A stretch of DNA of 64,000 nucleotides. Origin: a candidate division SR1 bacterium (lineage in GTDB: Bacteria; Patescibacteriota; Gracilibacteria; Absconditabacterales; Absconditicoccaceae). The stretch covers positions 1 to 64,000 of the forward strand of contig JAPLUT010000002.1 of NCBI GenBank assembly GCA_026397475.1, in the 5' to 3' direction. Under the pieces are notes generated by a model. That model made no database searches and had not been told where the DNA came from. It saw only the letters and a program-made list of their open reading frames with translations. Every line of letters begins with the position of its first letter. Within the stretch, counting starts at the first letter, position 1. The position numbers were made by a program, and so were the translations under genes. Below, piece after piece: positions 25,466 to 28,003 of this stretch.

Positions 25466-28003
25466 ATGAATCTCGGTGAAGAAACAAAAAAAATCCAATC
25501 ATTTATCAAGACACATCATGAGGTAAGTAAACTGAATGAAAAAGAAGTGTCAGATTTTTATATTCAATTAATTGATTGTATCGTAGACCATAATCATCTG
25601 TATTATATAGATAACAAGTCACTCATATCAGATAAAGAATACGATGAGTTATTTAGCTATCTTAAAAGAATAGAAGAGTATTTTCCACAACTCACTACTT
25701 CAAATAGCCCTACGCAGTGATTGATAGGTCAGATAAGCGAATGATTTACACAAGCACAACATGAGAATAAATTGCTTTCACTAGAAAACACCTACAATGC
25801 AAAGGATTTAGAAGAACGAGATGAAAGAATTTACAAAATACTTACAAAAAATAGTAAAGTAAAAAATCCTGATAAGGAAAATCTTGTTTGTGGGACGGGC
25901 ATCATTCTCAGAAATCTGGATGGAAATTATATTTTTCAAAAAAGAGATAAGAATACAAAAAAATCGCCATGAAAAATATCATTATTCGGTTGATGAACTG
26001 AAGAAAACGAAACACATACATCTTGTGCAGTGAGAGAATTCAAAGAAGAACTAGGAGGAGTAATAGAAAAAAAAGAGTTAATAGAAATATGAAACTTTGA
26101 AAGTTATGTAACAAAAGAAAGGTATTTAAAAATATTTTACGCTTCGAATATAGATAGTAGAAAGCTTTCTATTCATGAATGAGAATCGATAGAAATTATG
26201 AGCTTAGACGAAGCAGAAAAGGATAAAGATGTTACCGATTTTACCAAAGAAGTACTTAAGTATTTTAAAGAAATTCAAGTAATTAAATATCACATAGAAC
26301 CAAAGTTTGACGGACTGAGCGTAGAACTTATTTACAAGAAATGAGAATTCACACAAGCTATTACTCGTGGAGATGGATCAGTAGGAGAAGATGTAACAGA
26401 AAATGTAAAAACAATTAAAAACGTTCCTAGAAAATTAAAAGATCCGATTGATATTCATGTCAGATGAGAAATTCTCATGCCAAAGTCTGTCTGGAAAGAA
26501 CTCAATAAAGAGAGAGAAGAAGAATGAGAAATTCCATTTGCCAATACGAGAAATGCTGCAGCTGGAAGCATTAAGCTCCTTGATCCTCAAGAGGTTAAGA
26601 AAAGAGGCTTAGTGTGCTACGTATATGATATTCTCAATGAAGAAGCAAATTTACCGGCATGAAAAAATCTATCTGATTTTTTTCCAGTATTTCCACGACA
26701 CAAAGATCTGAATACAATTCAAGAAGTCATAAAACTTTGCGAAGACATAGAAACAAAAAGATATCTAGAACAGGAGAATATAGAGTTTGATGGATTAGTA
26801 ATTAAAGTATCCTCTGTATTACAACGTGAATTTATTGGGGCTACAGACCACCATCCAAGATGGGCAGTAGCATATAAGTTTCCTGCACAGCTTGCCGCTA
26901 CGCAAGTGCTTTCTGTCGATTTTCAAGTAGGAAGAACAGGAGTTATCACTCCCGTCGCAAATCTCGAACCCGTACAATTAAGTGGAGCGAAACTTCAAAG
27001 AGTCAGTCTTCATAATTTTGATTTTATTAGAGATAAAGATATTCATCTTTATGATTGGATTTGGTTGCAGAGGAGCGGGGAAGTGATTCCTTACATCGTA
27101 AGTGTTATTACTGATCGCAGAACAGGAAAAGAAATGGAAATCAATCCACCAGAAAATTGTCCTTCATGCAATGAACCAGTTACCCATAGTGATATTCATT
27201 ACTACTGTACGAATCCTCATTGTCTCGCGAAGATAAAACAGCAAATCCAACATTTTGTAAGCAAGAATTGTATGGACATTCAAGGCATAGGAGAAAGCGT
27301 CGTTGATCTTTTAGTAGAAAATAAAATCGTAGAAAATATTGCAGATATTTACAAAATAAGCGAGACTAAAGTACAAATTCAATTATTAAAATTTCCCTGA
27401 TTTGGAGATAAGAAGGTTGCTGAAATTGCCAAAGGAGTAGAGGAGTCTAAACATAAAGCCTTACGAAGACTCTTGAATGGATTATGAATTTCTCATGTAG
27501 GCAAGAAGATGGCCCAAGATATCGCTGAACAACTTAACAGTAAAGATTTTATAGAAGAATTGACGAACGAGGAGTTTTTATCCTCTATTTATGGTATAGG
27601 AGAAAAGAGCGTTGAAACCATTAAAAACTTCTTCCACGCAAAACACAATTTGGAACTTCTTCATAAGTTAGAATCTTACGGAGTAAATATGGATCCCAAA
27701 AAATATTCAGATCACCTCAAAGCAAGTGAAGCTAAAGCAAGCTTCTCTATAACGGGATCATTTGTCCTCCCAAGAGAAAAGATTTCAGAATTATTTCAAC
27801 AGCAGGGTTACCTCTTCCATGAAAATCCTATCAAGACGACAGATTTTATACTTATCGGAGAAAAAGCAGGAAGCAAGAAGAATAAGGCACAAGATCTATG
27901 AATCACGATATATGAATGATGGGAGAATATAATTAAACAATTCCCATTTCTAAAAAGTTTATCCAATGAATTACCAAAACAGAAGATACAAAGTCTTTTT
28001 TAA
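25466..28003 (+). CDS. ligA: NAD+-dependent DNA ligase with an inserted Nudix domain
   Basis: An 845-aa protein, about 170 residues longer than usual LigA. Domain Ia (about 1-100, [20 protein letters not shown]) and the LSLENTYN segment (104-111) are normal. Then about residues 130-265 form a Nudix domain with box G176-x5-E182-x7-R190-E191-x2-E194-E195-x-G197. The adenylation domain resumes with EPKFDG and catalytic Lys280. OB fold, zinc finger (Cys565, 568, 581, 586), HhH repeats and a BRCT domain (about 755-840) follow. The frame is continuous when TGA is Gly. The protein seals nicks using NAD+; the Nudix part may hydrolyse a nucleotide such as a by-product of NAD+ metabolism (inference). 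CGA at residue 118 aligns with Phe/Trp. Confidence 0.95.

Follow-up and report, generated by a model that had tools for sequence, protein, structure and literature searches.

The NAD+-dependent DNA ligase LigA encoded at positions 25466-28003 (plus strand) of the window, the whole 64,000-nucleotide stretch from an Absconditabacterium (SR1) analysed here, carries a Nudix hydrolase domain in front of its catalytic lysine and is a new variant of LigA. That the in-frame domain is real we regard as practically certain, and the protein is probably a genuine two-enzyme protein. LigA, an antibacterial target, is the essential ligase of the textbooks, and to find an enzyme inserted beside its nucleotide-handling core is unexpected. 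With TGA read as glycine (translation table 25), the region is an open frame of 845 amino acids, which scores 654.8 bits over its full length against the LigA model NF005932 (cut-off 369) and thus belongs to the family. Matches to Pfam comprise the PF01653 adenylation domain (E 9.9e-75, best stretch aa 242-475), the PF03120 OB fold (E 1.2e-30; aa 479-555, positions 26900-27130, plus strand), HhH and, within the ligase domains, PF00293 NUDIX. One LigA match each is found in the source genome (G000) and in a congeneric MAG (G001); the product of 25466-28003 is therefore the only LigA found there, which suggests, judging by sequence, that it is active as a ligase. Across an alignment of 26 rows, one of which holds the insert fragment only, Lys280, Asp282 and Gly283 are invariant or nearly so, as are His42, Tyr46, Tyr47, Asp56, Tyr59 and Asp60, which we take to be the N-terminal NMN-binding residues.

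Alignment with 16 LigA proteins lacking the insert delimits the additional segment as aa 131-275 (25856-26290, plus strand). These roughly 145 extra residues directly precede EPKFDG and Lys280 (codon 26303-26305, plus strand), presumably the adenylated lysine of this motif, and the remainder of the nucleotidyltransferase domain follows as aa 276-475 (26291-26890, plus strand). The insertion site is the loop that connects the helix DERIYKIL to the strand bearing EPKFDG/Lys280; in relatives this loop is short and varies from one to another. The preliminary description of this DNA had placed the extra residues at about 130-265, of which the start agrees with the alignment, but the end has to be moved to 275. 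The Nudix domain itself spans aa 144-265 (25895-26260, plus strand; E 1.4e-11, 45.0 bits against a cut-off of 21.1, or E 5.9e-13 for the excised insert), an assignment shared by PF00293, the AlphaFold model and the VIA comparison with the MutT structure 3grn. The core of the Nudix box (aa 176-197; 25991-26056, plus strand) strictly matches GX5EX7REUXEEXGU through the glycine, so the same description was right in calling the box complete. In the insert of G001, the last glycine of the box is replaced by a glutamate while the RE..EE residues are retained.

Structure prediction, which had been proposed together with the original observation, yields models in which both the insert and the ligase are folded. 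AlphaFold gives the insert alone a pLDDT of 90.6 and a pTM of 0.83, and the full-length LigA a pLDDT of 82.3 and a pTM of 0.51 with a weak spot at residues 131-133. In the full-length model a helix of residues 258-271 is closely followed by the Lys280 strand of residues 275-281. The whole protein retrieves LigA structures in Foldseek, with 2owo of E. coli as one of the highest-ranked, and the Nudix part retrieves MutT 3hhj with a TM score to the target of 0.81; in VIA, the insert alone matches 3grn_B (MutT) with a Z score of 18.9 and an rmsd of 2.0 over 132 residues. No substrate class was singled out by the fold comparisons of the insert with Foldseek and VIA. ADP-ribose-related Nudix structures are among the structural matches, and the asymmetrical Ap4A hydrolases 1ktg and 4ijx are found among those of Foldseek, although not as the best. 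A tyrosine 16 residues after the Nudix box is a mark of ApnA hydrolases; by our count by eye, this position is a tyrosine in the G000 LigA and a histidine in that of G001.

The MutT-like character of the insert leads to one alternative, namely that the domain cleans the general nucleotide pool of 8-oxo-(d)NTPs or similar compounds and is fused to abundant enzymes for expression or stability only. In NCBIfam the insert indeed matches MutT best, and its best fold matches are MutT-like, but at 32.1 bits for the insert alone the NCBIfam score falls far under the equivalog cut-off of 97.9, and such a role leaves the choice of host enzymes unexplained, which makes it improbable.

The insert is under purifying selection. 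For the single pair of G000 and G001, the insert has an NG86 dN/dS of 0.29 (0.26 in its Nudix part), against 0.11 in the remainder of LigA. The LigA Nudix is probably still a working hydrolase. A recent transfer of the insert was considered from the synonymous sites, where the raw dS is 0.83 for the insert and 1.62 for the rest of LigA, and was rejected as an interpretation. When codon composition is allowed for, 65 of 91 codons are identical in the insert (fraction expected 0.58) and 289 of 515 in the core (0.47 expected), and since the excess of identical codons is then small, the low dS of the insert is not used as a sign of youth.

The preliminary description knew of no described LigA with this layout, and the insert is rare, being present in only two of 33 LigA loci examined, those of G000 and G001, with the loci of G008 and G015 being cut before the insertion site. 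A search of homologues, likewise proposed at the outset, found the insert of G001 in frame at the same site, in a protein of the same layout that is 70% identical over residues 1-845. The other congeners G002-G007 have only a short loop there; in the ninth genome of the genus, G008, with its truncated locus, nothing matches the insert at E<=1e-6. An assembly chimera or a sequencing artefact is a negligible explanation given this second MAG of the same layout and a frame that is open and under purifying selection. The other long LigA proteins (G012, G020, G023 and G024) gave no Nudix match. When 353 genomes of the class were searched with the insert at E<=1e-6, 13 matches were obtained, including G000, G001 and the leucyl-tRNA synthetase (LeuRS) of G043; the frames that contain the remaining ten do not exceed 351 aa, and thus none of these is a LigA, although an insert-based search would miss a LigA bearing an unrelated Nudix domain.

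The distribution of the insert does not follow the phylogeny of its host. In a LigA backbone tree of 13 rows, from which columns filled in less than 70% of rows were dropped and the insert thereby removed, G000 groups with G002 and G003 (87/89) and G001 with G004-G006 (94/95). Two changes on this tree are required to explain which LigA proteins carry the insert, and a clade uniting G000 and G001 is rejected (AU p 0.0018). The inserts of the two genomes are nevertheless sisters (100/90), though their hosts are not. Such a pattern possibly reflects a gain by transfer, or else repeated loss within the genus.

The preliminary description also considered that a nearby Nudix gene had been inserted into ligA, which the comparisons do not favour. 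The nearest relative of the insert among the 353 class genomes is a Nudix domain inside the LeuRS of G043, a member of another family of the class (E 6.9e-27, with the next best match at 7.7e-11), and capture of a resident Nudix gene is not supported, in that none of the genomes G002-G008 has a match to the insert at E<=1e-6. The G043 LeuRS has two Nudix domains in tandem and runs off the end of a contig of 4.6 kb. Three overlapping trees unite the LigA inserts with the G043 LeuRS Nudix in a single clade (100/93, 97/97 and 98/87), and the common family of Nudix domains in the LeuRS editing loop forms a separate one.

Several other origins were examined. A phage source was rejected, as none of 50,697 phage records gave a match at E<=1e-3; the viral_contigs set gave 34 weak matches (E>=7e-8) in frames of 85-417 aa. 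An intein was rejected since the Pfam scan of the whole protein gives ligase, HhH and NUDIX families only and no Hint splicing domain, and a group I or II intron since the frame is open through the insert and no Rfam match at E<=0.1 is present in 25400-28100. No direct repeat that could represent a target-site duplication flanks the insert. A candidate terminal inverted repeat, a single 10-nt inverted pair in G000, is equalled in 16 of 2000 shuffles and has no counterpart in G001, and was likewise rejected.

Nudix domains occur inside two further essential enzymes of the source genome. Its LeuRS (G000:C7:68702-71686) contains one at aa 423-524, adjoining the editing-domain match at 257-420, and its isoleucyl-tRNA synthetase (IleRS; G000:C3:251001-254378) one at aa 239-334, together with a His_Phos_1 domain. 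Among the 98 PF00293 matches found at E<=1e-4 in nine congeneric genomes, 16 lie in frames longer than 780 aa, and all of these are IleRS (8), LeuRS (6) or LigA (2). A further eight are in frames of 303-337 aa that by motif resemble NadM-Nudix fusions, two are in frames of 334-342 aa resembling tandem Nudix proteins, and the frames around the other 72 reach 257 aa at most. Of the matches listed for 44 phylum genomes (E<=1.1e-15), three lie in frames longer than 700 aa, each of which is a LeuRS (G359, G365 and G391). Phylum frames of 300-450 aa include, by eye, MutY-like, tandem Nudix, WecG-like and NTPase-like proteins, and Nudix hosts other than LeuRS, IleRS and LigA may exist outside the genus. 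Also assigned by eye are a MurC-like protein with a C-terminal Nudix domain (G627) and a WecG-like frame that ends in one (G367).

In the phylum at large, a profile built from the Nudix domain of the LeuRS editing loop, flanks included, finds 50 of 379 genomes at E<=1e-30, 49 of them nearly over its full length, and given this commonness, protein databases probably already hold LeuRS-Nudix architectures. The corresponding IleRS profile finds two of the 379 at E<=1e-25, the source genome included, and by these sequence searches a Nudix domain inside IleRS appears rare outside its own family. No description of a Nudix domain inside LigA, LeuRS or IleRS was found among the titles and abstract openings listed from the non-subscription literature. 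The strict box is present in all 18 LeuRS inserts that could be extracted by motif from 30 loci, and in 14 of 21 inserts when those of LigA, LeuRS and IleRS are taken together. A Nudix box is found in 27 of 30 IleRS loci fetched, with one of the other three loci being cut; in the IleRS boxes of the family, the glutamate and arginine are conservatively changed in five of nine, and a sixth is without the last glycine.

The history of the LeuRS module is distinct from that of its host. In a LeuRS backbone tree built without the Nudix domain by a quick method, with 45 of 59 proteins (12 were dropped for missing anchor motifs and two as too short), the eight rows of the genus form one clade (99*). 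In contrast, on a Nudix tree of 38 rows built by a careful method, the six LeuRS inserts of the genus need four changes; a single origin of these inserts was seen in 0% of 200 bootstrap trees, and a single clade is rejected (AU p 4.8e-41). With one clade of hosts and four origins or exchanges of inserts, the LeuRS module has a turnover of its own, independent of the host enzyme. The replacement in G001 illustrates this. The flanks of its LeuRS insert are identical to those of the uninserted G002 at 95 of 109 and 117 of 149 positions and to those of G365 at only 61 of 104 and 69 of 150, whereas its Nudix domain shares 66 of 135 residues with G365 and only 47 of 135 with the congener G000. As read from these alignments, the switch is local and confined to the Nudix module, and we consider it very probable that the module moves separately from its host. 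This host-independent turnover is more surprising than the LigA-Nudix variant itself. The IleRS inserts were split by a quick Nudix tree, a result that was rejected; a constrained tree with all ten together was better, and so no conclusion is drawn on their origin.

Such turnover at a fixed site would also be expected from a mere passenger, a selfish or neutral in-frame insertion that folds by itself in a tolerant surface loop and whose chemistry is irrelevant to ligation. This is the main rival to a functional reading and has a real, if minority, chance of being correct. The LigA loop is variable in relatives, and LeuRS and RecG of relatives accept other domains, PD-(D/E)XK-type nucleases included; as LeuRS hosts inserts as unrelated as DUF559, PDDEXK_3 and a serine hydrolase, part of the pattern may be simple tolerance or hot spots. 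However, a passenger would not readily account for catalytic residues as intact as the box counts above, for the dN/dS of the LigA Nudix, or for the restriction of internal Nudix domains, among the matches listed, to only three kinds of large host enzyme.

The hosts have in common that LeuRS, IleRS and LigA all hold an enzyme-bound adenylate, that is, Leu-AMP, Ile-AMP and ligase-AMP, and for this reason the most likely job of the domain appears to be the removal of adenylyl by-products in cis. The best reading, which we favour tentatively and at somewhat less than an even chance, is thus a horizontally moving and catalytically intact Nudix module of adenylate-forming enzymes that clears such by-products. 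In the mechanism that we infer, from the catalysis and its substrate to the benefit and the direction in which LigA received the module, the latter would have been gained horizontally and in frame from a Patescibacteria pool of Nudix domains inside large enzymes, mainly LeuRS but also IleRS, whose members, in LeuRS at least, replace one another at a fixed site irrespective of the host enzyme. It would be seated as an active pyrophosphohydrolase in a surface loop of LigA, between the nucleotidyltransferase helix and the Lys280 strand, where it might hydrolyse adenylyl by-products with a pyrophosphate linkage, for example ApnA or abortive AppDNA.

PMC7705103 names T4 DNA ligase, DNA ligase III and the aminoacyl-tRNA synthetases as makers of Ap4A, with the T4 enzyme forming it from ligase-AMP and an NTP, and lists Nudix enzymes, MutT1 among them, as Ap4A hydrolases. 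PMC11784022 describes MutT1 as a Nudix domain joined to a histidine phosphatase, and both domain types are found inside the source-genome IleRS. By analogy, the substrate of the LigA Nudix may be an adenylyl by-product of its host, a proposal that is nonetheless doubtful: LigA uses NAD+ rather than ATP, the literature that we searched yielded nothing on ApnA formation by LigA-AMP, and the difference of tyrosine and histidine 16 residues after the box likewise counts against it. The altered IleRS boxes and the change of glycine to glutamate in the G001 LigA weigh against the by-product-clearing module as a whole. It is also rather unlikely, in its full breadth, that Nudix domains are mobile modules which enter or replace one another in frame and without splicing at fixed loops of LeuRS, IleRS and LigA in Patescibacteria, as working enzymes that clean or sense adenylyl by-products, with LigA as their newest host.

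A more specific alternative, already raised in the preliminary description, is that the Nudix domain acts on NAD+, ADP-ribose or adenylylated intermediates and thereby regulates or proofreads ligation. LigA consumes NAD+, ADP-ribose-related structures are among the fold matches of the insert, and NadM-Nudix-like frames account for the eight of 98 matches in the genus given above. To our knowledge, however, LeuRS does not use NAD+, and the kinship of the insert with the LeuRS module argues against a purely NAD+-centred role; moreover, the fold comparison shows no standout substrate class, and the hydrolysis of its own cofactor would be wasteful for the ligase. An NMN adenylyltransferase-Nudix fusion able to hydrolyse NAD+ to NMN, described in PMC7824862, offers a precedent for a more NAD+-centred role, but taken together such control of ligation is improbable. 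The in-cis handling of adenylyl by-products such as Ap4A, in turn, becomes a directly testable idea.

The protein resembles several known systems. It shares with LigA (NF005932, PF01653/PF03120) the domains, the Lys280 motif and the structural match to 2owo, but unlike the usual form it has a Nudix domain within the nucleotidyltransferase domain, between a helix ending at about residue 131 and the lysine-bearing strand. Similarly to MutT-like hydrolases (PF00293; 3grn, 3hhj), the insert has a complete fold and box, yet it is an internal domain of another enzyme, neither a stand-alone protein nor fused to a terminus. The Patescibacteria LeuRS and IleRS likewise carry their Nudix domains in frame, with catalytic residues and in a surface or editing-domain loop, and differ in being other host enzymes. 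The NMN adenylyltransferase-Nudix fusion of PMC7824862 also joins an adenylyl-transferring enzyme to a Nudix domain, although the fusion is terminal, whereas the LigA Nudix is inserted, and the host reactions differ. Mycobacterial MutT1, which acts on ApnA, is a small protein whose N- and C-terminal halves are the Nudix and histidine phosphatase domains (PMC11784022 and PMC7705103); LigA has the Nudix domain only, with no His_Phos match in Pfam, and IleRS has both. Inteins and homing endonucleases also lie in frame in conserved genes, and the LeuRS module similarly has a history separate from its host, but the LigA insert has no splicing domain and resembles an ordinary metabolic hydrolase. 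Nudix domains in three essential enzymes of one reduced genome, together with the histories of the LeuRS module, suggest a way for small-genome bacteria to gain functions, by in-frame domain insertion and not by new genes.

The sequences given here were all translated with TGA as glycine only and with CGA and CGG left as arginine. In the source genome, 20 of 21 counted columns with CGA and three of three with CGG align with a conserved tryptophan, and PMC8629427 reports both codons as tryptophan in Absconditabacteria. Arg118, Arg411 and Arg667 of the printed LigA translation are therefore probably tryptophans; the insert is without any CGA or CGG codon. The only tRNA found in the window (55021-55093, minus strand) is called tRNA-Arg(ccg) and, since the codons align with conserved tryptophans in this genome, may serve as a tryptophan tRNA for CGG.

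Directly upstream of ligA, in low-G+C DNA, lies a gene for a PF05635 23S rRNA-intervening-sequence-type protein (25031-25438, plus strand), the place of which is taken in G001 by a sugar transferase gene. At G000:C1:63860-64600, running past the end of the window, a frame of 342 aa apparently holds two tandem Nudix domains and has a close relative in G008. The LeuRS proteins of relatives carry other in-frame inserts near the editing domain, among them DUF559 and PDDEXK_3 (GxxExxY) domains, an ASCH-like stretch assigned by eye in G006 and a serine hydrolase in G359, with insert stretches that include aa 298-400 of L133, aa 274-386 of L134 and aa 273-442 of L254. The RecG helicase of G004 (G004:C41; L253:112-2751) contains a PDDEXK_3 nuclease domain, inserted in frame, at aa 309-416. 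Finally, short peptides such as ILSETKNPVN (LigA loop) and RHNESSKQ-ESFHDVEII (LeuRS) resemble translated copies of dispersed palindromic repeats placed in frame.
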